A DNA stretch of 64,000 bases from Silvibacterium dinghuense (GTDB lineage: Bacteria > Acidobacteriota > Terriglobia > Terriglobales > Acidobacteriaceae): contig NZ_SDMK01000001.1 in assembly GCF_004123295.1 (NCBI RefSeq), positions 1,674,001-1,738,000 on the forward strand, given 5' to 3'. A program made the position numbers and the translations under genes. Under the pieces are notes generated by a model. It was not told the DNA's origin. It was given only the letters and a program-made list of their open reading frames with translations, and did not search any database. Shown here piece by piece: positions 19,958 through 60,192 of this stretch. Positions within the stretch are counted from its first letter, which is position 1, and each line of letters opens with the position of its first letter.

Positions 19958-20310
19958 GGGGGCGTCACGGTTTCGACGGGATCGTCAGCGGTAAAGAGGC
20001 ATGCCGGGGTGTGTGCACCCGTAATCGCTCACAAAAACACAAGTGCCGAACCACAATTCGCACTCGCAGCTTAATTAATTAAGTTGCCGTCCTCCGCGGC
20101 TTTGCCTGCGGGCTTCGAGAGGACGTCGCACAGCAGGCTGGCTTCTATCGTTGGGTACGGGCGATAGAGGCGAGATCCACGGACTAGCAATGCGCGCATC
20201 TTGTCCGTTCTGAGCGCGCAAAGCGAAACCTTCGGAACAGGACTGAGCATGGAGCCTCTCTTTGCTGACTACGATTTCGGACGCGGGTTCGACTCCCGCC
20301 GCCTCCACCA
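19958..20310 (+). ncRNA. ssrA: tmRNA
   Basis: tmRNA rescues stalled ribosomes by acting first as a tRNA, then as a message. The 5' end GGGGGCG pairs with 3' GCCTCC-ACCA. GGTTTCGACGGGAT near the 5' end and GGGTTCGACTCCC near the 3' end are the diagnostic tRNA-like parts. The tag frame starts with GCT at 20027 and encodes AHKNTSAEPQFALAA before TAA at 20072, ending in the usual protease signal ALAA. An island has inserted exactly at the 3' end, and the tRNA end is left intact. Confidence 0.95.
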
Positions 20311-44894: not shown

Positions 44895-45039
44895 CCTTAC
44901 CATTGCCCTTAGCCCTCGAGCATAGACAGCCCGGGGTTGGGGGAGGTCAGGTAATCGATTTCATTTCCCTTCGCTGCCGCCTCGCCACCTCTCCTATAGT
45001 GCTGAATCATATAGCCTTACCAGCCACGCAACGAATTTC

Positions 45040-45097
45040 TTGACAAGGACTTCGAACGCCGGTTAAAACTCAGGCCGCAATAAATGTATACGTTTAC
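45040..45097 (+). promoter_or_regulatory. Promoter and LacI-like operator before the GH43-like gene
   Basis: TTGACA at 45040-45045 and TAAAAC at 45064-45069 (18 apart) make a promoter. About 17 bases on, GTATACGTTTAC (45086-45097) is a near-palindrome with a central CG, the hallmark of LacI-family operators. Its position over the early transcript suits repression. No LacI gene is in the window. Confidence 0.45.
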
Positions 45098-45263
45098 TTG
45101 CGATCTGCAGCATTGCCTGACCTGTGCGGAACACCTCACCACGCCATTTCAAAAAGAGGACTTCTGCGCGCATCGTGTGCCCGCTTGCGCGGCGAACTTC
45201 GATCCACCGCGAAATCCGGGTGTAAGACGACCCTATCTAACACACTTCATGGGAGATACGTGT

Positions 45264-47513
45264 ATGCTGCGCAGGATGAAACAGTGGCTTTCTCCGCACT
45301 CAGGCAAGAAAAGCGAATGCCGCGGGAATGCGGCTTCCATCACAAAACGATGCTTTGCTCCTCTACTGGCCATCGCATTCACGGCCCTGTTGGCCGTAAA
45401 TGCGATGGCTCAGACCGTCACGGTCACCAATGTGCCGGAAAACGGATATCAATATAACTACTTTCCCGGTAACTGCCCGTCCGGATATGACATTCCGAGC
45501 GGACAGTATCCTTCCACCAATCATCTGGAACGCGAGCATGTGATCTACAACAAATCCACGGGAGAATGGGTGCTCTATGCCCATTACGACAACAGCAGCT
45601 ATACGGTAGCCTCGGTGCTGGTGGCGACGAGCACGAATGAGTGCGGCCCCTACACCGTGCAGAGCGAGTTTCAGCCGCTGGGATTGCAGTCGCGCGATGA
45701 AACTGTTTTTGAGGATGACGATGGATCGGCCTATCTGATCTCCGCCTCGAACAAAGATGGTGGAGCAAACGACACGATGGCCGTCTTTAAGCTGACAAGC
45801 GACTACCTGAGTGTCGACCCGAGTGCTGGATATATCTGGCTATTTGAGGGGTTATATCGCGAAGCGCCAGCCGTCGCTAAGTCAAACGGGACTTATTTCC
45901 TGATTACTTCGCAGGCAGCAGGATGGTATCCGAGCCAGGGCGGATATGCAGCCAGCACAGCGATGATGTCAGGCTGGTCAGCCTTGCAGGATCTGGGAAA
46001 CACCTCCACGTATGGCGGACAGAGCGCCGACATCCTGACCATCAAGGGCACGCGGACAAATGCATACGTATTAGTGCTCGATCATCTCGGAGGAAACTCG
46101 CTCACGGATACGGGAAGCATGTGGCTGCCTCTGTTGCTCGACGGAAAAGCGCAGACGGCAACACTCAACTGGTACAGTTCATGGCAAGTCGATACGAAGA
46201 CCGGCATATTAACCTTGCCGAATAACGAGAATGTCGCGCGAAACCGGCCGGCATCAGCTATTTCGAGCCTGACCGCAAACCCGCCTTCTCTCGCGAATGA
46301 TGGAAAATACCAGACAGAATGGGTTGCCTCTACCGCAACATGGCCCGCATGGTGGATGACCGACCTGGGGTCGCCCAAGCCAATCCAGGAGGTCGATATC
46401 TCCTGGTTCATGTACAAGGGCTCCGAAGCTTATTACCAATACACGATTGATTACAGCAACGACGGAGTGAACTTTAAGAGCATCGACAAAACAGATAATC
46501 AGCTCTACGGATTCACCTCGGATGCAGTCAACATCACTGCGCGGTACGTGCGGATCACACTGCAGAATGCAGTACTTTGGAACAACCCGAATAACTGGTA
46601 CACACCGCAGCTATGGGAAGTATCCCTTCTGAAAGCGCCGCAGGGGAGGCAGATTCCCGTCAAGGTGCAGGCTTCCGCTTCCGCTTCGAGTATTTCTATC
46701 GATAGTCCGGTTACGATCAACGCGACTGTAACCACTCCCAGCGCCTGCGTGCCTCTCAGCGGCACGGTCGCACTCTCCGGCGGAGGGTACACCTCGCAGC
46801 CTCTGGCTCTCATTCCAGCAACAGCAACAACTTCAGAAAACGAGGATGACAGCCGCACCGATCACCCGGAAGATCGCGGCTCACACAATGGACAGTGCGA
46901 CCAGAGACTGACGGGAACAGCCTCTTTCACCGTTCCTTCAGGAGTCCTAGTCCCGGGAGAAGATGCAATGGTAGTGACTTATATGCCAGGACTACTCAGT
47001 TCCTGGGCATATAGAACCTCCACGGGTCAGACCCAAGTCAAGGTGAATGGCGGCGGACCAGACGGAGGATACATCATTCCGAATGGGACTTATACCTTCG
47101 TGAACCGCAACAGCGGTCTGTACATGGATGATCCGGATAGTTCAACCACCCTGGGCACCGGGATCGATCAGGCTACCGCAAGCAGCGGGACAAACCAGCA
47201 ATGGCAGGTGACGAATCTCGGCGATAACATCCTGAAAATTACCAATGTTGCCAGCGCACTCGTTGTGGACATGACAGGGTGGTCTGCATCCAATGGCGGC
47301 GTCGTAGATGAATGGAGCTGGAATGGAGGCGCGAATCAAGAGTGGAAAGTCATTTCCCTTGGAGGCGGCCTCTACGAATTGACGAACGTAAACAGCGGCC
47401 TTGCGCTTGAAGTTCCAGGCTCATCCGTGACAAGCGGCACGGTGCTCGACCAGTGGACATGGAACGGCGGAGCAAACCAGCAATGGATCATCCATAGCGT
47501 CCCGACGGAGTAA
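45264..47513 (+). CDS. Secreted GH43-like protein with discoidin and ricin-lectin domains
   Basis: 749 residues from ATG 45264 (GGAG upstream). After a long signal peptide ending LLAVNAMAQ comes a five-bladed propeller like family 43 hydrolases (HLEREHVIYNKSTGEWVLYAHYDN, SRDETVFEDDDGSAYLISA, LFEGLYREAPAVAKSNGTYFLITSQ). An F5/8 type C (CBM32-like) domain spans about 340-475. An Ig-like part follows, then a ricin-type lectin with three Q-x-W repeats (NQQWQV, NQEWKV, NQQWII). It likely trims a plant, fungal or exopolymer galactan, arabinan or related glycan. Longer in-frame starts upstream lack a signal peptide. Confidence 0.82.
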   Translation: MLRRMKQWLSPHSGKKSECRGNAASITKRCFAPLLAIAFTALLAVNAMAQTVTVTNVPENGYQYNYFPGNCPSGYDIPSGQYPSTNHLEREHVIYNKSTGEWVLYAHYDNSSYTVASVLVATSTNECGPYTVQSEFQPLGLQSRDETVFEDDDGSAYLISASNKDGGANDTMAVFKLTSDYLSVDPSAGYIWLFEGLYREAPAVAKSNGTYFLITSQAAGWYPSQGGYAASTAMMSGWSALQDLGNTSTYGGQSADILTIKGTRTNAYVLVLDHLGGNSLTDTGSMWLPLLLDGKAQTATLNWYSSWQVDTKTGILTLPNNENVARNRPASAISSLTANPPSLANDGKYQTEWVASTATWPAWWMTDLGSPKPIQEVDISWFMYKGSEAYYQYTIDYSNDGVNFKSIDKTDNQLYGFTSDAVNITARYVRITLQNAVLWNNPNNWYTPQLWEVSLLKAPQGRQIPVKVQASASASSISIDSPVTINATVTTPSACVPLSGTVALSGGGYTSQPLALIPATATTSENEDDSRTDHPEDRGSHNGQCDQRLTGTASFTVPSGVLVPGEDAMVVTYMPGLLSSWAYRTSTGQTQVKVNGGGPDGGYIIPNGTYTFVNRNSGLYMDDPDSSTTLGTGIDQATASSGTNQQWQVTNLGDNILKITNVASALVVDMTGWSASNGGVVDEWSWNGGANQEWKVISLGGGLYELTNVNSGLALEVPGSSVTSGTVLDQWTWNGGANQQWIIHSVPTE

Positions 47514-47529
47514 GGATAGAAAGGACTGC

Positions 47530-47574
47530 GACATGCTGCATTGCAGATAAAGTCCCTCCGCAATGCAGCATGTC
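47530..47574. terminator. Hairpin between convergent genes
   Basis: 15-bp perfect stem GACATGCTGCATTGC/GCAATGCAGCATGTC with a 15-base loop, between the converging GH43-like and sulfatase genes. It probably ends transcription on both strands although no U-run is present. Confidence 0.6.
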
Positions 47575-47609
47575 CTGGCCCGAAACTGGCAAGACAAAGC
47601 CTCTCCGCA

Positions 47610-49037
47610 TCAAGCCGGCCGCACTGGCTCATTCGGGGAGATACCATCTGGATCATTGACTACGGCACCCGGTGGCGCTGCAACGGCGCCCTGCAGCAAG
47701 GGATCTTTTGTCGCAAGCATCCAGTGGTGAAGACGTCCGCGCATTTCATCGAGTATCTGCACATACGCAGAATCACTCGCAAGATTGTCATGTTCGGTTG
47801 GGTCGAAAGTCAGATCGTAGAGGCTCTCCTGAGGCAGATGATGATTTGCCCATCCGGCTTTGAGCCACAGCGTCTTACTCAATCCGTCATCGCAATTCGG
47901 GAGAACCGGCGTGGTCTTGTTTCCAAACCGTCGAATATATTTCCAGCACTCTGTACGCACCGCGCGGACGGGTTCATAGGCCGCATGATAGTTCACCTCC
48001 GCAAATATTTCTTCGTGGACTGCAGTTGCGCTTCCAGCAAGCAACGGCATCAGCGACTTACCCTGCAGCCATGCCGGCGCGGCAATGTCCAGATACTCAC
48101 AGAGTGTGGGGAAGATATCGATCTGCGATACCATCGCATCCTGCACGCGGCCCCTGGATATCCCGGGTCCACGCAGAATGAGTGACACACCCCAGCCATC
48201 GTCCGTCAGATTGCACTTCATGCGCGGGAACGAAATGCCATGGTCCGTGGTGCTGATGATCAGTGTGTTCTCGAGCTGACCATTGCGCTCGAGGGCCTCA
48301 AACACCTGGCGAACACCCTCGTCGAGAATGCGGGCGCTGGCTCGATATCGGGCAAAATCTTCGCGTGTCTCAGGCGCATCGGGAATGGGACGCGGTGGCG
48401 CCTGAAAATCCGCACGATCCTCGGCAGTTGCATCCGGATACTCGCGGTGTGTCTCAAAAAAACCTACATCGAGAAAGAACGGCACACTGGGACGGCTGTC
48501 GAGAAAGGCTGCAGCTGCAGGCGCCACCACGGTCGCACTTGTGCCATGGTGATTCGCCTCGGTCATAGGCCGCGGCAGGATGCGATCATAACCAATCGTC
48601 TCCGGCGCCTTTGCCACATGTTGTATTCCTGCCAGCACAGTCTGGTAGCCAGCGGTATGCAGCGTATGCACGATGTGCTGGCGGTAGTCATGGAGCGAAA
48701 ACCCGCGATGTGCAAGGCCCAGCATCCCGCTGTTATGCGGATACAGTCCCGTCAGCAAACCTGCACGGCTCGGAGAACAAGTCGGCGCCACGCTGAAAGC
48801 GCGGCGGAAGAGCGTTCCCTCATCGGCCAATCTCTGGATATGCGGCGTCGGCACATCGTAGCCATAAGGTTTGAGATAGCGTCCCGTGTCATGAGAATGC
48901 AGATAGACGATATTGGGACGCGCAGCAGCAGGATCCGCTCCGATAGCGGGGATGTTGGATGCGATGCCTGCTGCAGCCGCTCCCTTGAGAAAGGTGCGGC
49001 GTGATACGTCAAATCTTTCCACACTCTGGTCAGTCAC
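47610..49037 (-). CDS. Sulfatase with Tat signal
   Basis: About 475 residues. The GTG at 49037 is preferred because AAAGGAG lies 8 bases upstream. The Tat signal SRRTFLKGAAAAG leads. The sulfatase core shows RPNIVYLHSHDTGRYLKPYGYDVPTP and the Cys-type activation motif CSPSRAGLLTGLYPHNSG, whose Cys must be oxidised to formylglycine. ISTTDHGISFPRMKCNLTDDGWGVSLILRGPG is the second metal region. It resembles heparan N-sulfatase-like family S1 members. The maturation enzyme is encoded about 4 kb upstream. Confidence 0.92.
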   Translation of the reverse strand: MTDQSVERFDVSRRTFLKGAAAAGIASNIPAIGADPAAARPNIVYLHSHDTGRYLKPYGYDVPTPHIQRLADEGTLFRRAFSVAPTCSPSRAGLLTGLYPHNSGMLGLAHRGFSLHDYRQHIVHTLHTAGYQTVLAGIQHVAKAPETIGYDRILPRPMTEANHHGTSATVVAPAAAAFLDSRPSVPFFLDVGFFETHREYPDATAEDRADFQAPPRPIPDAPETREDFARYRASARILDEGVRQVFEALERNGQLENTLIISTTDHGISFPRMKCNLTDDGWGVSLILRGPGISRGRVQDAMVSQIDIFPTLCEYLDIAAPAWLQGKSLMPLLAGSATAVHEEIFAEVNYHAAYEPVRAVRTECWKYIRRFGNKTTPVLPNCDDGLSKTLWLKAGWANHHLPQESLYDLTFDPTEHDNLASDSAYVQILDEMRGRLHHWMLATKDPLLQGAVAAPPGAVVNDPDGISPNEPVRPA

Positions 49038-49131
49038 AACAAACACTCCTTTGATTCACCACAAAGCACCTGGCTCACGGCGGAATGAACATATCCGCAG
49101 AGAGACCAGGCGCCTGTGATCCTATATCTGG

Positions 49132-52100
49132 CTAAAAGGTGTAGTGAGCAGCAAGCTGCAGTGTGCGTGAAGAGGTTGAGCCACCGGACAGGCTGGTAAT
49201 TGTGCCGAAACCGGTTGAGCCGAAGGTCGTATTCGGATTGCCGAGGTTCGCATGGTTGAGAGCGTTGAAGGCTTCCATGCGCAGCTCCAGCTTATGACCT
49301 TCGCGTACATCCACAGTTTTGAGCAGCGTCAGATCGGTATCCGCAAACCCAGGGCCGCGGCCGAAGGTTCGCGGCGCGTTGCCGAAGGTGTAGTTTGCAT
49401 TCTGCGTAAAGGCGCTGGTATCGAACCACTCGGCGATCTTCGCCGCCCTTGAGCGGCCCGAGCGGAGATCATTCGGGTTCCCCGTCAGGTTAGGACGCAC
49501 GCCATCCGAATAACTTCCGGTGTTATTGGTCGAATCAATCGGGCTTAATGCTGTGCCCGCATGAATTTCTTCCAGCCCACTGATACTCCAACCACCGATT
49601 ACCTGATTCACCAGATAGGAGTTAGAATGCAGCGGCTTACCCTGTCCAAATGGAAGCTCATAAAGTCCGCTGAAGATCAGGCGATTGCGGATATCACTGC
49701 CGGAAAGCCCCCAGCGTCCCTGCTGATCGTAGTAATTCGTGAAGCCGTTGTTCGGATAACCCGCAACCCCGAAGCGCGCACTCCCGTTATCGCGCATCTT
49801 CGACCAGGTGTAGTTTGCCTGATACTGGAATCCACTGCTGTAGCGCTTCTGCACTTCGATATTGCCCGCGTTGTATCCGGACTGTCCGTCATCGGGATAC
49901 AAGCTCTGCACATTGGTGAACTGCGGAAACGGCCGCAGCGTTTGCGCTTTGTATGCCGACGGATTCGCTGCCAGCAGGGCAAGATTCGCCGGAGTGATCT
50001 GATCGATGCTTTCAGCATACGGGCTGACCAGATGGTGCCCAAACGTTCCGGTGTAGCCGATATCGAGCAGCGTACTGCCCGGCAATTGGCGCTGCCAGTC
50101 CGCGTGTAGTTGGTAGAGGTACCCGGTCTTGTGGTCCTTTGTGATCCACTGCACGGTGGTGTTCGGAGTGCTGCCTACTGCGACGGCACCAAAGCTCGGC
50201 GTCAGCTGAGAAGCGGTCGGATAAGCTGCAAGCCCGGTGCCTTCGGTGCCATTGTCCTTAAGCAGGAAAGCGGGCGTGCCGGCAACCGAGTTCGGAGAGG
50301 TCAGAGAGATCGCATTTGAAAATCCGAGCGCCATCACAATCGGAGTGGCCTGATCATATTCACCCTCATAGAGAATGCCGGAGCCGACGCGAAATACTTC
50401 GTTCTCGCGCGGAGTCCAGGCCAAACCCAAGCGAGGGCCGAAGAGAGTGCGATCGAAGTTATTCGCATACCGGCTCTGACCATCGATGCCGGCGAAAGTA
50501 ATTACACCCGGTGTACCCGACACCGGATTGATGGCCGTTGGATTGAAAGAATTCTGACGATTGTTGCTCAGGTAACGCGGTGAGTCGATATCCCAGCGCA
50601 GACCATAGTTGAGAGTGAGCTTGTCGTTCACATGCCAGTCATCCTGCGCATAAAGACCCCAGCTCCAGGCAAGCGAATAGAGTAGTTCCGTTTCCTGGCG
50701 TGATGCGGAATTGACCCGGCCCAGCAGCAGGTTTGCGAGGCTGCCTGCCGCGTTGTTGCTGCTCGCGCCCGTAGAGGTGAAGTTGAAGAATCCACCAGCC
50801 GAAGGAGAATAGAGATCTCCGTCAGCTGACGTGCGGTAATCGATGCCGTACTTCGTCTGGTGTTTGCCAATCTGCCAGGAGAGATTATCCGCATACTCGT
50901 TGGCCAGAATGGGGGTCTGCAGGCGCTGCTGCTGCGATGCATTGCCGATGGTCGCGAAGCTTCCCAGGGTCACACCCGGGAAATATGCCGAGTTGATGCC
51001 CGGAAGGGCCAGGGCTGCTGCCGCCGCGGAATTGGTGCCATTGGTGAGAGCAAGCGCCTCGCGAAAAGAGAACGTCGCGCGCGCCTCGTTCAGCACATTC
51101 GGAGTGAAGATGTGATTCCACGTCGCAGACGGATTGTAGTAATAATCCAGTGAACTGCTGCCGTAAGGATCCGTTCCTGGCGTGGGATATACATTCGGCA
51201 CGCTTGAGTTGGATGGGTTGGCAAGAAAGCGCCCATACACAGAATCTCTGTCGGAAAATTTGTGATCGATGCGAAGAACGTAGATGTTGCTGACAGACTG
51301 CGTAGTGTCATTACCGGAGAAATTACTGGTGTTGAGCGCAGCACCTGTGACATTCGGCAATGGATAATACGAAGCCAGCTTTACTCCATAAGGATCGAGT
51401 TCGGATGGAGGAAGCACATTTTTCTGCCCGTTGTATTCAGCCTGCAATCCGGTATTCGGGTCGATCACCTCTGCTGCGACCTCTGAGAAGTTGCCTGCGC
51501 GCTCAAGTGCATCCGGCACGTTCAGCAGAAGTGCGCTGCTTGTAGTCTGCCGCCTGCCTTCATACGTGAAGAAGAAATACGTCTTACCTCTCCAGATAGG
51601 ACCACCTATGCTTCCGCCGAAGAACTTGTACTGGAGCGGAGGATTTGTGGTGGCAAAAACGGGAATCGCCTGAAAACCCTGGCTGCGGTAATAAAAATAT
51701 GCGCTGCCATGGAAGTTATTCGTACCCGATTTGGTTGTCATCTGAATGAAACCACCACCGGAACGGCCAAGCTCAGCCTTGTAGTCGGAGATGCTGAAAC
51801 TGAACTCCTGCAACGCATCAATCGGGAGGTTGAACATCTGCTCCGGCACGCCCTGCAGAAGATTCTGCGTGGTACCGCCATCCACCGTGTAATTCGCGTT
51901 ATCACCGCGGCCACCAGCGATAGTGAACTCCGTATTGGAGCCCGTGCCACTGCTCACCACCAGACCACTTAACCGCTGTAACTGCGAAGCTGTCCGATCC
52001 AGGAGCGGATAGTTCTTGATCGATGTATTCTCTACTTCGTCGGTAATGGAAGAGGTTGTGGACTGTAGCTGCGCAACGTCACTGTGTACCTCGATCTTCT

Positions 52101-52476
52101 CCACAACATGCCCGACATCCAGCGTAAAGCTCACAGCCGATGCCTGTCCCGTGAAGATTTCAACCCCTTCCTTCGTCTGAAGATTGAAGCCATCTTTCTC
52201 GACCGTGATGTTGTAGTGTCCCGGAAGAAGAACCGGGAAAGCATAAAAGCCTGAGTTATTCGTAAGCTTCGATTCCGACAAACCAGTCTCCGTGCGGGTG
52301 ACGGTTACCTTGGCCCCGGAAATTTGAGCCTTCTGCGCATCCTGCACAGAACCGGAAAGAGAGCCTTCATTCTGAGCGAAAACATTTGTCGCTCCCAGGG
52401 CGCTCAGAATGAACATGACTGCAATCAGGGCACGCGTAGATAGACCGGCACGCCCGCGTATGTGAAGAGCCTTCAC
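49132..52476 (-). CDS. Oar-like TonB-dependent outer-membrane receptor
   Basis: 1114 residues. The GTG start at 52476 has AAGGAGG five bases upstream. A signal peptide is followed by a carboxypeptidase-regulatory-like domain (GSLSGSVQDAQKAQISGAKVTVTRTETGLSESKLTNNSGFYAFPVLLPGHYNITVEKDGF), a plug (FTIAGGRGDNANYTVDGGTTQN) and a long beta-barrel ending in the aromatic HYTF expected for outer-membrane insertion. It probably imports sulfated oligosaccharides, judged only from the flanking sulfatases. It has a long 5' leader with a short cysteine-containing ORF and a terminator. Confidence 0.93.
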   Translation of the reverse strand: MKALHIRGRAGLSTRALIAVMFILSALGATNVFAQNEGSLSGSVQDAQKAQISGAKVTVTRTETGLSESKLTNNSGFYAFPVLLPGHYNITVEKDGFNLQTKEGVEIFTGQASAVSFTLDVGHVVEKIEVHSDVAQLQSTTSSITDEVENTSIKNYPLLDRTASQLQRLSGLVVSSGTGSNTEFTIAGGRGDNANYTVDGGTTQNLLQGVPEQMFNLPIDALQEFSFSISDYKAELGRSGGGFIQMTTKSGTNNFHGSAYFYYRSQGFQAIPVFATTNPPLQYKFFGGSIGGPIWRGKTYFFFTYEGRRQTTSSALLLNVPDALERAGNFSEVAAEVIDPNTGLQAEYNGQKNVLPPSELDPYGVKLASYYPLPNVTGAALNTSNFSGNDTTQSVSNIYVLRIDHKFSDRDSVYGRFLANPSNSSVPNVYPTPGTDPYGSSSLDYYYNPSATWNHIFTPNVLNEARATFSFREALALTNGTNSAAAAALALPGINSAYFPGVTLGSFATIGNASQQQRLQTPILANEYADNLSWQIGKHQTKYGIDYRTSADGDLYSPSAGGFFNFTSTGASSNNAAGSLANLLLGRVNSASRQETELLYSLAWSWGLYAQDDWHVNDKLTLNYGLRWDIDSPRYLSNNRQNSFNPTAINPVSGTPGVITFAGIDGQSRYANNFDRTLFGPRLGLAWTPRENEVFRVGSGILYEGEYDQATPIVMALGFSNAISLTSPNSVAGTPAFLLKDNGTEGTGLAAYPTASQLTPSFGAVAVGSTPNTTVQWITKDHKTGYLYQLHADWQRQLPGSTLLDIGYTGTFGHHLVSPYAESIDQITPANLALLAANPSAYKAQTLRPFPQFTNVQSLYPDDGQSGYNAGNIEVQKRYSSGFQYQANYTWSKMRDNGSARFGVAGYPNNGFTNYYDQQGRWGLSGSDIRNRLIFSGLYELPFGQGKPLHSNSYLVNQVIGGWSISGLEEIHAGTALSPIDSTNNTGSYSDGVRPNLTGNPNDLRSGRSRAAKIAEWFDTSAFTQNANYTFGNAPRTFGRGPGFADTDLTLLKTVDVREGHKLELRMEAFNALNHANLGNPNTTFGSTGFGTITSLSGGSTSSRTLQLAAHYTF

Positions 52477-52513
52477 ATCGCCTCCTTAAAATTTTCAGGT
52501 AAAAAATAAAAAG

Positions 52514-52533
52514 CCCACGACCGGCGTCGTGGG
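52514..52533 (-). terminator. Intrinsic terminator in the TonB receptor leader
   Basis: CCCACGAC-CGGC-GTCGTGGG, read on the minus strand, is followed by CTTTTTATTTTTT. It ends only about 37 bases before the GTG of the receptor and follows the leader ORF by 65 bases. This is an attenuator position; there is no upstream minus-strand gene for it to terminate. Confidence 0.7.
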
Positions 52534-52598
52534 GACTGCAGAAGAGATCAAAAAGATCCGCTTAACTGCCCATCATGCGTATCGCGCACCACTCCACC

Positions 52599-52706
52599 CT
52601 AATCTGCGAGAAACAGATCAGCGGGACAACAACCCAGGAGGATCGCGGGAAGCAGGTGCATAGATGCATCTAGCCACAGCGTCGAAAAAAAAGCAATAGG
52701 CTGCAT
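52599..52706 (-). CDS. Candidate cysteine-containing leader peptide of the TonB receptor
   Basis: 35 residues from an ATG with an extended AAGGAGAAGGAG ribosome site. It begins MQPIAFFSTLWLDASMHLLP and ends LLGCCPADLFLAD, with tandem TGT TGT codons 9 codons before the stop. It is followed after 65 bases by an intrinsic terminator and then the receptor start. The arrangement suggests ribosome-controlled attenuation, where cysteine shortage stalls the ribosome at CC. No family match is known to me. Confidence 0.55.
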   Translation of the reverse strand: MQPIAFFSTLWLDASMHLLPAILLGCCPADLFLAD

Positions 52707-52762
52707 CTTTCTCCTTCTCCTTTTCGTCGGGAACAAACCCACTGGGCATCGCACAAAGATGC

Positions 52763-52791
52763 TTGACAAGAAGTAATCCGGACCGCATCAT
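52763..52791 (+). promoter_or_regulatory. Promoter for the anSME leader ORF
   Basis: TTGACA (52763-52768), 17 bases, CATCAT (52786-52791). The ATG of the leader ORF begins at 52799, 7 bases after the -10 box, so the transcript would start at or next to the ATG. Confidence 0.5.
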
Positions 52792-52798
52792 CAACACG

Positions 52799-52897
52799 AT
52801 GCGCTTCGCCCATACATTCCGCGAGAGTTGTTGTTGCCCCGGAGCCTCCCGGCATCGGAATCTTTTTCGTGGAACACCCATGGCGACGCACACCTGA
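52799..52897 (+). CDS. Polycysteine leader peptide upstream of anSME, apparently leaderless
   Basis: 32 residues beginning MRFAHTFRESCCCPGAS and ending GTPMATHT, with three cysteine codons in a row (TGT TGT TGC). The ATG lies where transcription from the TTGACA/CATCAT promoter should begin, so it needs no ribosome site. A terminator-like hairpin lies 33 bases after the stop and the maturase gene starts 102 bases after the stop. This matches the polycysteine leaderless short ORFs known in mycobacteria, which attenuate sulfur genes when cysteine is plentiful. Confidence 0.65.
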   Translation: MRFAHTFRESCCCPGASRHRNLFRGTPMATHT

Positions 52898-52930
52898 CAG
52901 ACATCGCATCTCCTGGTTTGTGCAAGACGC

Positions 52931-52954
52931 GCCCACGAGTTAAGGTTCGTGGGC
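52931..52954 (+). terminator. Hairpin between the polycysteine ORF and anSME
   Basis: GCCCACGA-GTTAAGGT-TCGTGGGC, then ATTTCTCTT. It is an 8-bp GC-rich stem with a modest U-rich tail, 46 bases before the maturase ATG. It probably acts as an attenuator. Confidence 0.55.
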
Positions 52955-52999
52955 ATTTCTCTTGCAGCTTCTGCTGCATATCGCACACCAGGACTACCA

Positions 53000-54232
53000 A
53001 TGAACTCGTTTCATATCATGGCCAAGCCTCATGGCCCCATTTGCAATCTCGACTGCACCTATTGCTATTACCTGGAGAAGGAAAATCTTTATCCGCGCTC
53101 TGGCCGTGAGTTCCACATGGCGGACGATGTGCTGGAAAGTTACATTCGGCAATACATCGCAGCACACCCCTCTTCCCATGTGAGTTTCGCGTGGCAGGGC
53201 GGAGAGCCCACACTGCTTGGCGTTCCCTACTTCGAACGCGTTGTTGCTCTCCAGAAGCAATATGCAAACGGGAAGACCATCGAGAACGCGCTCCAGACCA
53301 ATGGCACGCTGCTCGATGATGTTTGGGGCGAGTTCCTGGCGAAGAATCACTTCCTCGTCGGACTCTCCATCGATGGCCCGGCACACCTGCACGATGCCTA
53401 TCGCGTCGACAAAGGCGGGAAGCCCAGCTTTGCGCGAGTGGTGCGCGGCCTGGACATACTCAAAAAGCACGGCGTCGCATTCAATACGCTCACCGTGGTG
53501 AATCGCAAGAATTCGTATCACGCGCTCGAAGTCTATCGATTCCTCAAGCAGATCGGCAGCCGCTATCTCCAGTTCATCCCTGTCGTAGAGCAGCTTGCAG
53601 AAGCGCCGGATCACAACGGACTGCGGCTGCTCAAGCCCTACTCACAGACAAAAACTCATGTCTCGGATTGGTCTGTCGAGTCGCTGCAGTTCGGCCGCTT
53701 CTTACAGGAGATCTTCGATGAATGGGTAGTCAATGACGTAGGCCACGTCTATGTGCAAGCGTTTGATGTGGCCCTCGAATCCTGGGCAGGACTGCCGCAG
53801 TCGTTGTGCGTCTTTTCTCCCACCTGCGGCAATGCGCTCGCTCTCGAACATAATGGCGATCTCTATTCCTGCGATCATTTTGTTTATCCCGAAAATCGCC
53901 TGGGGAACATCGCCGAGCAACCGCTGCTTCGCATCCTTAACTCGCCACAGCAGAGCCGGTTCGGCAAAGCCAAGGAGACGGGCCTTCCCTCCGACTGCCG
54001 CTCTTGCGATGTACGTTTTGCCTGTAACGGCGAGTGCCCGAAGCATCGTTTTTCCAGTACGAGCTCAGGCGAATACGGCCTGAATTATCTTTGCGCCGGC
54101 TATAAGCACTTCTTTCATCACATCGATCCCTATATGCGCTTCATGGCGAATGAGCTTCGCCAAAGAGGCGTATCGGCAAGAGTGATGGAGTGGGCCCGCC
54201 ACCAGCGCGAAGCCACGACCGTAACTGCTTAG
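53000..54232 (+). CDS. Anaerobic sulfatase-maturating enzyme (radical SAM/SPASM)
   Basis: 410 residues. The radical SAM cluster motif CNLDCTYCYY is near residue 18, after FHIMAKPHGPI. SAM-binding features FAWQGGEPTLLG and LSIDGPAHLHDAYR follow. The SPASM region binds two more clusters through C-x-x-C sets in FSPTCGNALALEHNGDLYSCDHFV, DCRSCDVRFACNGECPKHR and YLCAGYKHFF. It oxidises the Cys or Ser of C/S-x-P/A-S/T-R sulfatase motifs to formylglycine without oxygen. Both sulfatases here carry Cys-type motifs. The ATG at 53000 has AGGA upstream. Confidence 0.94.
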   Translation: MNSFHIMAKPHGPICNLDCTYCYYLEKENLYPRSGREFHMADDVLESYIRQYIAAHPSSHVSFAWQGGEPTLLGVPYFERVVALQKQYANGKTIENALQTNGTLLDDVWGEFLAKNHFLVGLSIDGPAHLHDAYRVDKGGKPSFARVVRGLDILKKHGVAFNTLTVVNRKNSYHALEVYRFLKQIGSRYLQFIPVVEQLAEAPDHNGLRLLKPYSQTKTHVSDWSVESLQFGRFLQEIFDEWVVNDVGHVYVQAFDVALESWAGLPQSLCVFSPTCGNALALEHNGDLYSCDHFVYPENRLGNIAEQPLLRILNSPQQSRFGKAKETGLPSDCRSCDVRFACNGECPKHRFSSTSSGEYGLNYLCAGYKHFFHHIDPYMRFMANELRQRGVSARVMEWARHQREATTVTA

Positions 54233-54340
54233 CCTGGATATCTTCTGCGCTTTCTCTTTTCATCCACGCGGGCAAGGTACATTCTCTCCGCGGCGGACGG
54301 ACTTTCCAAACCAGTATCTACCTCAGACAGGGAGTGATGT

Positions 54341-56719
54341 ATGAAGCGAAGAAAGAAACTGGGGCTGCTTCTTAGCAGCACCCTGGCTGCACAATCCTGG
54401 CACGCGGTATGGGCACGTGAAGATCAGGCTCCGAAGAATCATGTGCAGGATGCGACAGCCGGAGAAGCAGGACGCGAAGAGCATCCTGCACCGCAGGCAG
54501 GTTGGCCCGAGCCGCCACGAGCGCATTCAGGATCGCCGAATATTGTCCTGATCCTGGTCGACGATGTGGGATTCGGAACGACAACTGCCTTTGGCGGCCC
54601 TATTTCCACGCCGAACTTTGACCGCCTGGCAGCATCGGGCCTCAAGTACAACAACTTTCACGTCAACTCGCTCTGCTCTCCCACCCGCTCCGCCTTGCTG
54701 ACTGGCTACAACAACCACGAAGTAGGATTCGGAACCGTGGCCGAAGCGGCTACAGACTACCCAGGCTATAACTCCTTGCTGCCGGAAGATATTACCCCCG
54801 TTGCCGAGGTATTGAAGGAAAACGGCTACAGCACGGCCGCCGTGGGCAAGTGGCATAACACGCCTACATGGCAGGTAAGTCCGGCCGGGCCATTCGACCG
54901 CTGGCCGACGGGCCGCTGGGGCTTCGAGCATTTTTATGGCTTCCTCGCTGGCGCAGACAACCAGTACTACACCCGCATCTATCGCGATCAGACTCCCGTA
55001 GAGCCGAAAGCCACGCCGGAACAGGGCTACCACTTCACCACCGACATCACGAATGACGCCATCAAGTGGCTGCATCAGCATGATGCTGTCGCGCAAGACA
55101 AACCCTTCTTTCTCTATTACGCGACCGGCGCCACGCACACCCCGCATCAGGTCGCGCAGAAGTGGATTGATAAGTACAAAGGTAAGTTCGATCAGGGATG
55201 GGATGTGATTCGCCAGCAAAGCTTCGATCGCCAGAAAGCGCTTGGCGTCATCCCAGCAAATGCTGAGCTGACTCCACGCCCCGACACCCTGCCGGCCTGG
55301 GACTCACTCACTCCGCAGCAGAAGAAACTGCTCGCTCACGAGGCCGAGGTATACGCCGGATTCACCGAACAAACAGACTACGAGATCGGGCGCCTGCTCG
55401 ATGCAATTCGCGAAGAGGGACAGGCAGACAACACCATCGTCATCGAGATCTTCGGCGATAACGGAGCAAGCGCGGAAGGCGGACCGGATGGAACCGATGC
55501 GCAGGATGTGAACGGCAAGCCGCTCAGCATCGATGCGCGGCTCGACGCAGCAGGCGCATTAGGCAGCGAAGTCTACATGAATCACTTCGCCGCCGCCTGG
55601 GCATGGGCGCTGACTTCGCCCTTCCAGGGCACCAAGCAGGACGCCTCGCACCTGGGCGGCACCACGGATCCGCTGGTCATCTCCTGGCCTGGACACATCA
55701 GCGACAAGGGTGGCCTGCGCACACAGTTTGCGCACGTCAATGACATTGCACCGACGCTCTATCAACTCACCGGCATTACGCCTCCCGACACGCACGATGG
55801 CGTAAAGCAGCTGCCGCTTGAGGGCACCAGCCTCGCATACACGTTCGATCATCCGAACGAACCCTCTCATCATCATGTTCAATACTTCGCAACCAGCGGT
55901 AATCGCGGGATTTATAAGGATGGATGGTGGGCAGGCGATCTTTATCATGAGACATGGGAACGCAACGCTGCGCTCTTCTCCGGCAACAACAAGGAGCCGG
56001 ACACACATCCGTGGGAGCTCTATAACATCAACGAGGATTACAGTCAGGCTCATGACCTTGCAGCGACACATCCGGAAAAGCTCAAAGAACTGCAGGCACT
56101 CTTCCGGCAGGAAGCCGAGCGCAATCACGTTTATCCGCTTCTGCCCGGCATCGATCCATACCCAACCGGTCAGCTGAAAGGCCAGAAGGTCTTCACCTAT
56201 CGCGCCGGCGTAGACCGCATCGTGCCGCGTATCGCCCCCAACGTGGCAGGCCGCTCCTACACCATCACTGCGGACATCGACGTTCCTGCCAGCGGCGCAG
56301 AGGGTGTGATCTTCGCACAGGGCAGCCGGTACGGAGGACTTACGCTCTTCGTGAAAGACAATCGCGTCATCTACGAGATCAACGCGCATGGCAACCGCTC
56401 CGGACAAATTGTCTCCTCGGAGCCGCTTGCTCCTGGCAAGGCACATATCGTCGTCGATATCACGCCCAGGAAGAATCCGGAGGAGCCAAAGAAGAATCCG
56501 CCGGTCCGGCCTTTCTTCGCGCCGCCTCCCGCGCCAGGCACAGGCCAATTGTCTATTAACGGCAAGGCCGCAGGCCAGGGAGACTTCGCCAACGTCGTAG
56601 TGTCTTCGAATGAAACGCTCGATATCGGCAGCGATCTCGGCTCACCGGTCAGTCCCGACTACAAATCGCCGAACCGCTTTACCGGCAGCATCGACACGGT
56701 CACCGTCGAAATCCACTAA
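54341..56719 (+). CDS. Arylsulfatase
   Basis: 792 residues. A signal peptide (RRKKLGLLLSSTLAAQSWHAVWA) and spacer precede PNIVLILVDDVGFGTTTAFGGPISTPNFDRLAASGLKYNNFHVNSLCSPTRSALLTG, where DD binds calcium and the Cys of CSPTR becomes formylglycine. AVGKWH and EIFGDNGASAEGG are later active-site parts. The C-terminal 180 residues add a beta-rich domain (ADIDVPASGAEGVIFAQGSRYGGLTLFVKDNRVIYEIN) found in large arylsulfatases. It lies about 110 bases after the maturase on the same strand, so the two probably share a transcript. Confidence 0.93.
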   Translation: MKRRKKLGLLLSSTLAAQSWHAVWAREDQAPKNHVQDATAGEAGREEHPAPQAGWPEPPRAHSGSPNIVLILVDDVGFGTTTAFGGPISTPNFDRLAASGLKYNNFHVNSLCSPTRSALLTGYNNHEVGFGTVAEAATDYPGYNSLLPEDITPVAEVLKENGYSTAAVGKWHNTPTWQVSPAGPFDRWPTGRWGFEHFYGFLAGADNQYYTRIYRDQTPVEPKATPEQGYHFTTDITNDAIKWLHQHDAVAQDKPFFLYYATGATHTPHQVAQKWIDKYKGKFDQGWDVIRQQSFDRQKALGVIPANAELTPRPDTLPAWDSLTPQQKKLLAHEAEVYAGFTEQTDYEIGRLLDAIREEGQADNTIVIEIFGDNGASAEGGPDGTDAQDVNGKPLSIDARLDAAGALGSEVYMNHFAAAWAWALTSPFQGTKQDASHLGGTTDPLVISWPGHISDKGGLRTQFAHVNDIAPTLYQLTGITPPDTHDGVKQLPLEGTSLAYTFDHPNEPSHHHVQYFATSGNRGIYKDGWWAGDLYHETWERNAALFSGNNKEPDTHPWELYNINEDYSQAHDLAATHPEKLKELQALFRQEAERNHVYPLLPGIDPYPTGQLKGQKVFTYRAGVDRIVPRIAPNVAGRSYTITADIDVPASGAEGVIFAQGSRYGGLTLFVKDNRVIYEINAHGNRSGQIVSSEPLAPGKAHIVVDITPRKNPEEPKKNPPVRPFFAPPPAPGTGQLSINGKAAGQGDFANVVVSSNETLDIGSDLGSPVSPDYKSPNRFTGSIDTVTVEIH

Positions 56720-56734
56720 ACCGCGCCTCCAAAC

Positions 56735-56774
56735 AAAAGAGCCATATCGCGATGCCTTGCGATATGGCTCTTTT
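56735..56774. terminator. Bidirectional intrinsic terminator
   Basis: 16-bp stem AAAAGAGCCATATCGC/GCGATATGGCTCTTTT with an 8-base loop. The A-run before and U-run after it serve both the arylsulfatase and the convergent cysteine desulfurase operon. Confidence 0.85.
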
Positions 56775-56827
56775 TCTATCTCGACTTCACGCCGCGATAT
56801 GAAATATCACGCGCAATACTCTCTGCA

Positions 56828-58780
56828 TCAGTGAAGCTGCCGAAGCGCCGCGGCCAGCTTCTCTACCTCTTCATGCGTGTTATAGAGAGCCAGTGAAGCA
56901 CGCACCGTGCTTTCATGACCAAAGCGGCGGAGAATCGGCTGCGCACAATGATGCCCGGATCGCACAGCGATGCCGCAGCTGTTGAGATAGCTGCCAATCT
57001 CTTCCGTCTTATGCCCATCGATCACAAAGGAAAGCACGCCAGCCTTCTCCTTCGCTGTACCTACGATGCGCAGCTTCGGAATGCGTAACAACTCTTCGGT
57101 CGCATGCTGTAACAGCTCATGCTCATGCCGTGCGATGTTATACATCCCTACGCGATCAAGATAGTCGATGGCAGCGCCCAAGCCCACGGCATCGGCAATG
57201 TTGCCCGTACCTGCCTCAAAGCGCTGCGGAGGTCCATGATAGATCGTCTTCTCGAAGGTCACGTCCTGGATCATGTTGCCACCGCCCTGCCATGGCGGCA
57301 TTGCAGCGAGCACCTCCGGCTTGCCATAGAGCACTCCGATGCCGGTAGGCGCAAAAACTTTATGCCCGGAGAAGACAAAGAAGTCCGGATCGAGTTCCTG
57401 CACATCCACGCGCATGTGCGATACCGACTGCGCGCCGTCGAGCAGCACCTTCGCTCCGTAGCGATGCGCCATTTCGATCATCTTTTCCGCAGGAGTGATG
57501 GTCCCCAGAGCATTCGAGACGTGCGTGATCGAGACCAGCCGTGTTCTTGCATTCAACAGCTTCTCGTACTCGTCCAGCAGAATCTGGCCGCTGTCATCGA
57601 CCGGGGCCACACGCAGCCGCGCCCCCGTTTCTGCGCAGACCATCTGCCACGGAACGATGTTCGCATGGTGCTCCAGCCAGGTAATAACGACTTCATCGTC
57701 TTTACCCAGGTTGCGCCTGCCCCATGCCTGCGCCACCAGGTTGATCGCCTCTGTCGTACCGCGGACGAAGACGATTTCATTGATCGATGGCGCATTCACA
57801 AAGCGGCGAACCTTTTCACGCGCCGCTTCATACGCATCGGTCGCGCGAGCGGCCAGCTCATGAGCCGCGCGATGCACATTCGAGTTCTCGTGCTGATAGA
57901 AGCAGCTCAGCCTGTCGATCACGCTCTGAGGCTTTTGTGTCGTCGCCGCATTGTCGAGCCACACCAGCGGGCGCCCGTTCACTTTCTCCTGCAAGATCGG
58001 GAAATCGCGACGGACAGCTTCCACATCGAAAAAATGCGGCGTCAGAGCAAAGCTTCCTGCCGGCTCATACGTATGGCCCGTAGATACCGGCTCAGCATTG
58101 GTAGAATCGAGCGGACGCTGCCCATCGAACACGCCTGCCTGCGCCTGCTCGGCAAGCAACGCCAGATCGGGAGCAGGTAGAAACTCATCGCGCAGTTCCA
58201 GCCCGAAGACGGCCTGCGGCAACCACTCTCCCGCTGCATCCTGCGGAGCAGCAGCGAAGGATGAGCCATCCGCAAACAACGGCCGAGCTTCCGCAAGAAA
58301 TGAGAACGCCGAACCCGCCGGCGCGGTGCCAGGCAGCGGTGCGGCGTCAGGATAAGGAGCCTGCCCCGAAGCCTGGGGAGCAGCAAAAATCGGCCGCGCC
58401 TCTTGCAGGAAAGAAAAACCCGGCGCATCGAGGAATGAAGGAGCACCTCCAAGAACCCCGGGCACAGCGGGAGACGGTGCCTGGTACGGAGCCGTCAGCG
58501 GCGCAATGCCGGGCGCGTCCGCGCTGGCCGGCAGAGTCGGCAACTGCGGGTCCGAAGGCAGCGAGATAGCCGAAGGAATGGCCGGAGCGCCTGCTCCGGC
58601 ATCGGCTGCATCGCCTGTCCGCTCCGCGCCTTCATTCGGCAGCGCGCGGAAGAACTCGTTGGCCAGCCGGGCCAGCGTTGCGGCATCGGGCAGGCCAACG
58701 GGAAGCTCCGGCTCGAACGAGGACGCGAAGGCAGCAGCCGCATCATCCTGCGTTAACGGGATTCGCTCATTTGTACTCAT
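56828..58780 (-). CDS. SufS-type cysteine desulfurase, encapsulin cargo with long N-terminal extension
   Basis: 650 residues, about 240 more than SufS. Residues 250-650 are the enzyme: FFDVEAVRRDFPILQEKVNGRPLVWLDNAATTQKP, the PLP lysine in FVFSGHKVFAPTGIGVLYG and the catalytic Cys in AVRSGHHCAQPILRRFG. It releases sulfur from cysteine. Residues 1-249 are Ala/Pro-rich and probably disordered, with LARLANEFFRALP (37-48) and two copies of FSFL-x-EARP-x-FA (122-133 and 159-170). Such extensions load the enzyme into family 2A encapsulins. The gene overlaps the shell gene by 14 bases. Confidence 0.93.
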   Translation of the reverse strand: MSTNERIPLTQDDAAAAFASSFEPELPVGLPDAATLARLANEFFRALPNEGAERTGDAADAGAGAPAIPSAISLPSDPQLPTLPASADAPGIAPLTAPYQAPSPAVPGVLGGAPSFLDAPGFSFLQEARPIFAAPQASGQAPYPDAAPLPGTAPAGSAFSFLAEARPLFADGSSFAAAPQDAAGEWLPQAVFGLELRDEFLPAPDLALLAEQAQAGVFDGQRPLDSTNAEPVSTGHTYEPAGSFALTPHFFDVEAVRRDFPILQEKVNGRPLVWLDNAATTQKPQSVIDRLSCFYQHENSNVHRAAHELAARATDAYEAAREKVRRFVNAPSINEIVFVRGTTEAINLVAQAWGRRNLGKDDEVVITWLEHHANIVPWQMVCAETGARLRVAPVDDSGQILLDEYEKLLNARTRLVSITHVSNALGTITPAEKMIEMAHRYGAKVLLDGAQSVSHMRVDVQELDPDFFVFSGHKVFAPTGIGVLYGKPEVLAAMPPWQGGGNMIQDVTFEKTIYHGPPQRFEAGTGNIADAVGLGAAIDYLDRVGMYNIARHEHELLQHATEELLRIPKLRIVGTAKEKAGVLSFVIDGHKTEEIGSYLNSCGIAVRSGHHCAQPILRRFGHESTVRASLALYNTHEEVEKLAAALRQLH

Positions 58781-59687
58781 GGTAGTTCCCTACCTCGACG
58801 TTCTCGAGCGCCGCAATCGCGTCATCGGCCAGCACCGAGGCCGCGCAGTAGAGAGAGATCAGGTAGGAAGCGAGGCCGCGATTATCGATCCCCGTATAGC
58901 GCACGGACAATCCCGGCGTCTGTTCGCCGGGCAGCCCTGGCTGGAAAAGCCCGATTACGCCATTCTTCCGCTCACCCGAGCGGACAAGCAGAATCTGCGT
59001 TTTATTAGTGCGGGAAGAGATACGAATCTTGTCCGTAGGAATCAGCGGTACACCACGCCAGGTAAGAAACGGGCTGCCGAAAAGCGTGACGGTCGGCGGA
59101 GGTACGCCGCGGCGCGTGCATTCGCGGCCGAATGCGGCAACAGCCCGCGGATGCGCAAGGAAGAAAGATGGCTCCTTCCACACCTTCGTCAGCAGCTCAT
59201 CAAGATCATCGGGGGTCGGCGGACCCTTGCGGGTTGCGATCTTCTGCGCATCGACGACGTTATGCAGCAGGCCGTAATCGGCATTGTTGAGCAGCTCGTT
59301 TTCCTGCCGCTCCTTGACGCTCTCGATAGTGACACGGAGCTGTTCGCGGATCTGGTCGTACGGCTTGTTGAAGAGATCGCTGACACGCGTCTGCACATTC
59401 ACCAGCGCATTGATGCTGCTCAGCCGATACTCGCGCGGAGTCTCTTCATACTCGGCATAGGTCTCCGGAATGTCCGACTCGTCCGCATGCCCGCACAGCA
59501 CTTCGATAGGCTTGTCGTCGACCACGCGGTTGCGCCGGAAGACGCCGGCCTCAAGTGGCTTCCAATCCAGGAGCCGGACCAGCCAGCGAGGCGTGGCTGG
59601 GCTGTAAACCGGCGCGGTCTTGGTGATGTTGGCTAACTGATAGGCTGCTTGTTCGCCTAAAGAGGTGCGGATCGGAGTATCGGCCAC
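58767..59687 (-). CDS. Family 2A encapsulin shell protein (SrpI-like)
   Basis: 306 residues with a GTG start that has AGGAG seven bases upstream. It is close to the SrpI type: LANITKTAPVYSPATPRWLVRLLDWKPLEAGVFRRNRVV, FNKPYDQIREQLRVTIESVKERQENELLNNADYGLL, PTPDDLDELLTKVWKEPSFFLAHPRAVAAFGRECTRRGVPPPTV and the ending ENVEVGNYHEYK. This HK97-fold protein builds a nanocompartment that holds the cysteine desulfurase and stores sulfur in known family members. The operon order is rhodanese, shell, cargo. Confidence 0.95.
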   Translation of the reverse strand: MADTPIRTSLGEQAAYQLANITKTAPVYSPATPRWLVRLLDWKPLEAGVFRRNRVVDDKPIEVLCGHADESDIPETYAEYEETPREYRLSSINALVNVQTRVSDLFNKPYDQIREQLRVTIESVKERQENELLNNADYGLLHNVVDAQKIATRKGPPTPDDLDELLTKVWKEPSFFLAHPRAVAAFGRECTRRGVPPPTVTLFGSPFLTWRGVPLIPTDKIRISSRTNKTQILLVRSGERKNGVIGLFQPGLPGEQTPGLSVRYTGIDNRGLASYLISLYCAASVLADDAIAALENVEVGNYHEYK

Positions 59688-59802
59688 CGGAAGCTCCTTG
59701 CGGAAGGGTTCAACACTGCGGGCAAATTATAGCGGACACGGGCCTGTGGCCGTATGTCACCGAAGAACAGCCGTACAAAAGAAGCAGAGAGAACGGAGAA
59801 GA

Positions 59803-60123
59803 CTAATACTTCCGCACGCTGCGATCTACCCGGTCAGACCACGCATGGAGTCCGCCGCGCAGATTCACAACATGCTCAAAGCCATGCCGCTGCAGATATT
59901 CCACCGCCTTGACCCCGCGCGGCCCGTGCTTGCACACGGCCACAATCTCATCCGCGCCTTCCAGCTCATCCAACCGCTTCGGCAGCTCGGCCAGCGGGAT
60001 GAGATGACCACCGATATTCGAGATTTCATACTCATATTCATCGCGCACATCCAGCAGAAATACCGGCGCGCCGGCATCGAGACGCTGCTTCAACTCTTCC
60101 GCCTGAATTTCAGGAACACTCAT
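59803..60123 (-). CDS. Single-domain rhodanese-like protein
   Basis: 106 residues from ATG 60123. It reads ISAEELKQRL-like VPEIQAEELKQRLDAGAPVFLLDVRDEYEYEISNIGGHLIPLAELPKRLDELEGADEIVAVCKHGPRGVKAVEYLQRHGFEHVVNLRGGLHAWSDRVD. The active loop is CKHGPRG, with the sulfur-carrying Cys. Rhodaneses move sulfane sulfur, so it could pass sulfur to or from the encapsulated desulfurase. It is the first structural gene of the encapsulin operon, about 115 bases upstream of the shell gene. Confidence 0.93.
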   Translation of the reverse strand: MSVPEIQAEELKQRLDAGAPVFLLDVRDEYEYEISNIGGHLIPLAELPKRLDELEGADEIVAVCKHGPRGVKAVEYLQRHGFEHVVNLRGGLHAWSDRVDRSVRKY

Positions 60124-60161
60124 GGAAATCCAACCCTCCGTCTTGTTCGCAAAAAGCAAAA

Positions 60162-60192
60162 AACCCATCGCCAGGTCCTCTGGCGATGGGTT
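60162..60192 (-). terminator. Intrinsic terminator in the encapsulin operon leader
   Basis: 13-bp stem AACCCATCGCCAG/CTGGCGATGGGTT with a 5-base loop, followed on the minus strand by TTTTGCTTTTTG. It lies 38 bases before the rhodanese ATG and 33 bases after the leader ORF, so it should act as an attenuator. Confidence 0.75.

Follow-up and report, generated by a model that had tools for sequence, protein, structure and literature searches.

Cysteine-codon leaders on sulfur genes of Silvibacterium dinghuense and other Acidobacteriota: a probable transcription attenuator ahead of a sulfatase maturase gene

Upstream of the gene for an anaerobic sulfatase maturase (anSME) in Silvibacterium dinghuense lies a short open reading frame (ORF) with three consecutive cysteine codons, which raises the question of whether this ORF is a regulatory leader and how it would act. 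We consider it very probably a cysteine-responsive, ribosome-mediated transcription attenuator, and on our best reading it is one of a family placed on sulfur genes in Acidobacteriota. The computed basis consists of conservation of the Cys run, a bias toward TGT codons, covariation between regions 3 and 4, complementarity between regions 2 and 3, and gene context. A first-pass annotation of this DNA had proposed a cysteine attenuator at this ORF; Cys-rich frames ahead of the closest anSME relatives found and of receptor homologues support that idea, and the system is larger than was described there, taking in both sides of a divergent locus as well as cys genes.

The anSME leader and its surroundings

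Features were located in the window, meaning the whole 64,000-nucleotide stretch of DNA that was analyzed. Those of the leader and the genes behind it are:

52763..52791, plus strand: promoter TTGACA-17 nt-CATCAT, from which transcription is predicted to start at 52799 or an adjacent base
52799..52897, plus strand: leader ORF of 32 codons, MRFAHTFRESCCCPGASRHRNLFRGTPMATHT, with counterparts in L082-L086 and L163
52817..52827, plus strand: region 1, TTCCGCGAGAG, complementary to region 2 (joint z 4.9 over 14 loci; fold of this leader)
52829..52837, plus strand: putative regulatory codons TGT TGT TGC (Cys-Cys-Cys), aligned with the leaders of relatives
52864..52874, plus strand: region 2, TTTTCGTGGAA (complementarity tests; fold of this leader)
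52931..52939, plus strand: region 3, GCCCACGAG, 5' arm of the predicted terminator (hairpin finder, complementarity tests)
52946..52964, plus strand: region 4, TTCGTGGGC, then T-rich ATTTCTCTTG (3:4 helix covaries over 14 loci)
53000..54232, plus strand: anSME, a radical SAM/SPASM protein (profile match)
54341..56719, plus strand: sulfatase (PF00884), 108 nt 3' of anSME (profile match)

TTGACA occupies 52763-52768 and CATCAT 52786-52791, with 7 nt (52792-52798) separating the latter from the ATG at 52799; the stop codon of the ORF ends at 52897. The hairpin GCCCACGAG-TTAAGG-TTCGTGGGC spans 52931-52954 and is followed directly by ATTTCTCTTG, a weak T tract. The first-pass annotation had placed a 32-codon frame with CCC 7 bases past a TTGACA/CATCAT promoter, and these coordinates were confirmed exactly; the terminator-like hairpin and the anSME gene that it put 3' of the ORF lie at 52931-52954 and from 53000. 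A short ORF rich in codons for the pathway's amino acid, as in an attenuator, is therefore found between promoter and gene. The maturase scores 510.6 bits against TIGR03942 (cut-off 349.45) and 488.6 against PRK13745 (cut-off 484), and it probably shares one operon with the sulfatase at 54341..56719.

The sulfur locus has two sides. Divergent from the plus-strand pair of anSME and sulfatase, the minus strand encodes a TonB-type receptor and a second sulfatase, and a further leader was found there:

52599..52706, minus strand: divergent leader ORF, MQPIAFFSTLWLDASMHLLPAILLGCCPADLFLAD, with a Shine-Dalgarno-like AAGGAGAAGGAG and Cys codons at 52626-52631 (ORF list, homologue comparison)
52514..52533, minus strand: predicted terminator CCCACGACGCCGGTCGTGGG then CTTTTTATTTTTT, ahead of the TonB-type gene (hairpin finder)
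49132..52476, minus strand: TonB-type outer-membrane receptor (PF25183 beta barrel, CarboxypepD_reg), behind the divergent leader (profile match)
47610..49046, minus strand: second sulfatase (PF00884), 3' of the receptor on the same strand (profile match)

We take the receptor to be of the TonB/Oar type. The Cys-containing part of its leader reads ..LLGCCPADLFLAD; no good promoter was found for this ORF, and the terminator behind it is strong. Adjoining the sulfatase locus at 56828-60168 (minus) are a family 2A encapsulin and a cysteine-desulfurase cargo, both above cut-off, together with a rhodanese-like gene that scores below cut-offs; no Cys-run leader was seen by eye upstream of the rhodanese and encapsulin genes. 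A tmRNA gene (tag AEPQFALAA) lies at 19958-20310 (plus) of the window.

Could the leader be a chance ORF, a CCC frame that merely happens to have an ordinary promoter on one side and a hairpin unrelated to it on the other? Counts from this locus alone are at chance level (1 promoter-like site found versus 1.7 expected, and 4 terminator-like sites versus 3.3 expected). TGYTGYTGYCC occurs 58 times in the genome and its reversed control 25 times; among the 30 of these 58 places that were opened, no second leader of the same kind was seen by eye in short frames. Note that this motif demands Cys-Cys-Cys-Pro and so misses most of the leaders found later. With single-sequence counts at chance, the leader is convincing because of the comparison with relatives, which already refutes the chance reading; conservation, controls and codon bias, all given below, leave it a very small probability.

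Leaders in related loci and on other sulfur genes

Of the best 80 anSME loci listed, the scan covered 43 (L082-L124) and left out L125-L161. The first-pass annotation had staked its proposal on the frame and the Cys run being kept in relatives. All five of the closest relatives among those listed (L082-L086, 75-78% identity) do have a short Cys-rich ORF 5' of anSME: MLHRRAFRCCCCPVAS.., MTPFYSFRACCCRSVSC, MMRRTQFRLCGCRPVCC, MKAIFQFRGCCRPVSR and MINRRTFRACCCPADS.., respectively. The six ORFs, that of the window included, lie 207 to 87 nt before anSME, and a PF00884 sulfatase is found 3' of anSME in each of these loci. The leaders of L084 (the same locus as L003, genome G088) and L085 have at most two adjacent Cys, and across the six aligned leaders little of the peptide is conserved except FR and the Cys run. 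A seventh leader of this type, MTKKLQFRSCCCRPVSL, was found in genome G098 (L163) using an RNA model. TTGACA is exact, with a 17-nt spacer, in all seven. A hairpin precedes the gene in five (the window, L082, L085, L086 and L163), that of L085 having a poor T tract and that of L163 being judged by eye; the hairpin finder returned none in L083 or L084, and a degraded hairpin is visible by eye in L083.

The RNA model (R1, terminator plus sequence) was run over 120 family genomes. It matched the two leaders of the window, G088, the new locus in G098 and 11 other places. At four of the latter (L165, L166, L167 and L171) no Cys-run leader was seen, and the remaining seven, judged from the table only, were rejected as short matches to the terminator end. 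In L163 (G098:C1:684087-684230, minus) the Cys leader and a terminator-like hairpin precede an anSME frame that is broken near its start, with a PF00884 sulfatase next; here the first gene seems to have decayed while its switch persisted.

A strict criterion (ATG, 10-45 codons, at least 3 Cys in 6 codons) was used for counts with chance estimates. Among anSME homologues of 71% identity or less (L087-L124, 38 loci, one too short to count) it gave a leader in 1 of 37, with 0.72 expected, and absence from the other 36 counts against the attenuator reading. The locus could not be compared within the genus because an anSME match at 1e-60 was found in none of the three genomes sampled and a close receptor orthologue in none of eight genomes besides that of the window.

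Receptor homologues were taken at 1e-180 from 300 family genomes, giving 16 places. Using a loose criterion (any common start codon, without a chance estimate), a short ORF with Cys-Cys lies within ∼300 nt upstream in 15 of them, the exception being L071; the strict criterion gave leaders in nine of the 16, with 0.40 expected. As a control, paralogues of the receptor in the same genome were scanned (80 matches, some of them pieces of one gene; 30 loci opened, including that of the window), and strict leaders were found in 2 of 29 (L188 and L177; 0.40 expected). The leader may also serve as an annotation handle, marking the few sulfur-uptake receptors among many TonB-type genes. A sulfatase lies downstream of L177 on the same strand. 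The receptor at L188 (C1:2161404-2164520 of the same genome, minus) is divergent from cysDN and has its own leader, MSFFRTFLTCCRRGCC, mirroring the two-sided layout of the window.

In the S. dinghuense genome, the PF01507 gene (PAPS-reductase family) encodes CysD, with CysN next; both score above cut-off. The leader of cysD reads MRFAPAATVFVMHACCCACCPRTAVCSVNA; frames such as MRFTIEASAISMQRACCCVCCVCPGRALCI precede PAPS-reductase-family genes of relatives. These leaders strengthen the sulfur/cysteine logic offered on first pass, in which sulfatases free sulfate that feeds cysteine synthesis. Strict leaders were found in 11 of 14 related PAPS-reductase-family loci (0.27 expected), the 14 being what remained of 25 after exclusion of two partial matches and of nine loci that represent a second family member in the same cluster. 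In a phylum sample of 29 new loci, opened from 49 matches listed and including some that are not the first gene of an operon, the corresponding count was 10 (0.38 expected). Six of these ten leaders lie outside the family of the window, and among the six, plain runs of at least 3 Cys occur in L235, L254 and L256 only. For sulfatases, six PF00884 matches were found in the S. dinghuense genome at 1e-20, and a Cys leader is present in the stretches of four, namely both sulfatases of the window, L263, and L258, which lies behind receptor L177. None was seen at L260 or L261/L191, and these two likewise count against the attenuator reading.

Codon usage sets the leaders apart from nearby genes. Cys codons in 37 leaders are TGT 139 : TGC 38 (79% TGT) versus 11 : 89 (11% TGT) in 17 genes close by; in non-coding DNA on the flanks, TGT triplets number 109 and TGC triplets 183. 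Since related leaders are not independent, p-values from these counts are too small.

A short Cys-rich ORF adjoining a radical SAM/SPASM gene might also encode a RiPP precursor processed by that enzyme, and related peptide maturases in NCBIfam do match it, below their cut-offs. The enzyme is, however, above the anSME equivalog cut-offs, and the partner of the ORF is not a dedicated peptide maturase but an anSME with a PF00884 sulfatase behind it, both here and in L082-L086. Like ORFs also precede TonB-type receptors and cysD-type genes, and the conserved part of the peptide (FR and the Cys run, in six anSME leaders) also pairs as RNA. We therefore regard a RiPP precursor as highly improbable.

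Alternative pairing in the leader RNA

Pairing was analyzed in 14 loci with both a leader and a hairpin. A segment that starts 20-34 nt past the last Cys codon complements the 5' arm of the terminator (joint z 7.4, 0 of 2000 shuffles); this 2:3 pairing had been spotted by eye before the formal test. In the window, TTCGTGG (52866-52872) is the part of region 2 that pairs with region 3. The stretch just 5' of the Cys run complements much the same segment (1:2, joint z 4.9). Most single-locus complementarity tests do not reach significance. In a set of 22 loci that includes cys leaders, duplex energies of each segment with its own arm sum to -267.4 versus -217.3 (sd 10.1) for permuted arms, with 0 of 20,000 permutations reaching this value; this contrast lies partly between gene groups, and within groups the own arm of several loci, the window included, pairs no better than the arms of other loci. 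The 3:4 helix covaries over the 14 loci, both partners having changed in 4 of its pairs (0 of 500 shuffles). On one fixed alignment, 1:2 and 2:3 give more pairing in register than when slid, and covariation of these two helices is not above shuffles. Region 2 starts at or after the stop codon in four loci (a083, a085, a163 and the receptor leader of the window) and inside the ORF in the other 18 of 22.

When folded as free RNA, the anSME leader of the window forms 1:2 and 3:4. When region 1 is masked by a ribosome and region 4 is not yet made, 2:3 forms instead, so that complementarity and folding both give an antiterminator that excludes the terminator. Once region 4 is present in the stalled state, folding slightly favors the terminator (-31.9, versus -29.4 for the antiterminator), and the switch must therefore be kinetic.

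What we infer from these data is the operon structure, the start site of transcription, ribosome stalling and termination, and induction of the genes under cysteine starvation. RNA polymerase would start at ∼52799, and a ribosome would begin at the 5'-terminal AUG and translate the leader. If Cys-tRNA is scarce, the ribosome would stall on TGT TGT TGC and cover region 1, so that regions 2 (52864-52874) and 3 (52931-52939) could pair ahead of the synthesis of region 4; no terminator would form, and anSME plus the sulfatase would be transcribed. If cysteine is ample, the ribosome would move on and leave, 1:2 and 3:4 would form, and transcription would stop before anSME. The second Cys leader would exert like control over the divergent receptor and sulfatase genes, and further Cys leaders on sulfate-assimilation genes would make scavenging and assimilation obey one signal. 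If this reading is true, sulfatase activation is tied directly to cysteine supply.

The switch might instead act on translation: stalling would expose the ribosome-binding site of the gene behind the leader, and the hairpin would be no terminator. Mycobacterial polycysteine ORFs are described in this way in the available text of PMC9031893 and PMC13236596. The T tract behind the anSME leader of the window is weak, and a clear terminator is absent in L084, in receptor leaders L075-L080 and L059 (terminator finder) and in several cys leaders, e.g. L211-L213 and L237-L243 (by eye). On the other hand, an intrinsic terminator is predicted between leader ORF and gene in the window, and hairpins with T-rich tails are found in 10 of 17 receptor loci scanned (L067 by eye only) and, by eye, in six cys leaders of the window's genus (the tail of L210 lies beyond the stretch printed). 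Moreover, the 3:4 helix covaries, and the segment past the Cys run is complementary to the 5' arm of that helix. Translational attenuation thus appears unlikely to us, and transcription attenuation is the reading carried forward.

Start sites and known systems

Promoter spacing was measured in a hand-picked set of 45 leaders, which includes the near-copies L067/L068 and two ORFs of L073. At the best promoter-like site, 19 of 45 have a gap of 6-8 nt between -10 and ATG (7 nt in the window), by group 1 of 7 anSME, 8 of 19 receptor and 10 of 19 cys leaders, although for many of them the site agrees with no more than 7-8 of 12 bases. A TTGACA box (at least 5 of 6) begins 34-38 nt 5' of the ATG in 12 of 45, versus a shuffled mean of 0.89 and a maximum of 5 in 1000. 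A strict promoter test has little power because only nine of the 45 reach at least 9/12, two of these having a gap of 5-10 nt (0.14 in shuffles). A Shine-Dalgarno-like word precedes the ATG in only one (c_L205) of the 19 leaders with a gap of 6-8 nt. The leaderless start proposed on first pass therefore agrees with spacing at the anSME leader of the window and at many cys and TonB-type leaders but is not kept in the other six anSME leaders, where the gaps are 17, 44, 49, 58, 71 and 71 nt. Judged by spacing, which is what predicts these start sites, a 5'-terminal AUG would be a common trait of the family, dispensable in view of those six gaps, and the Cys run the constant one.

Polycysteine leaderless ORFs in mycobacteria sense cysteine through ribosome speed, according to papers that cite Canestrari et al. 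(2020, doi 10.1111/mmi.14498); passages of PMC9031893 and PMC13236596 describe translation attenuation, and PMC9094748 is a further paper citing this system. Both groups have short ORFs, leaderless in mycobacteria, with consecutive Cys codons ahead of sulfur or cysteine-related genes. The acidobacterial leaders differ in belonging to another phylum, in having terminator/antiterminator anatomy, in extending to anSME, sulfatase and TonB-type receptor genes, and in not all being leaderless. Of the mycobacterial parallel drawn on first pass, the putative cysteine-codon sensor is supported, whereas the switch appears transcriptional here and is described as translational there.

Attenuators of the trp/his/leu type have a run of end-product codons, regions 1-4 and a terminator before the first gene. 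The acidobacterial leaders share all of these and differ in sensing cysteine, in the 5'-terminal AUG that is likely in many, and in a region 2 that starts inside the ORF (18 of 22 loci). They would thus combine the sensor of mycobacterial polycysteine leaders with the switch of enteric amino-acid attenuators, a likeness of function. In other bacteria, sulfur genes are controlled in cis by riboswitches (S-box, SAM); here, no Rfam family was found at gathering score in window positions 45000-60000, and nine leader-bearing loci gave two tRNAs only.

No paper on Cys-codon attenuators in Acidobacteriota was found in the literature searched (top-ranked results, with subscription journals mostly outside scope). 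A passage of a 2010 survey (PMC2965389) states that hardly any attenuator predicted in Acidobacteria could be associated with a function. Leaders with Cys runs are now placed far from mycobacteria, and many of them show spacing of the leaderless type and a terminator/antiterminator anatomy. For a soil phylum that is common but poorly studied, they offer a regulatory logic of sulfur acquisition that can be tested. Tentatively, and as a generalization that may well prove too broad, the sulfur economy of Acidobacteriota could be largely run by cysteine-codon attenuators, many with a 5'-terminal AUG. Charged Cys-tRNA would then set assimilation and organosulfate scavenging (TonB-type receptors, sulfatases, anSME) jointly, in place of the protein regulators and riboswitches of other bacteria, and leaders would arise or be rebuilt repeatedly on new sulfur operons.

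Two further loci are recorded. At L263 (C4:403125-404174 of the S. dinghuense genome, minus), a sulfatase has the leader MSCCRKSCCCRASRRAGSRGVSFSASL, with 36 nt from TTGACG to ATG and, behind the ORF, a GC-rich terminator-like hairpin (by eye) of different sequence. At L165 (G021:C42:12097-12229, plus), TTGACA-N17-CAGAAT is followed by a proline-rich leader ORF, MILKPSIPSPLPCMPPVSLRLWDWSERP, and then a terminator-like hairpin ahead of the pyrroline-5-carboxylate reductase gene proC (TIGR00112, above cut-off), making this leader a candidate proline attenuator.
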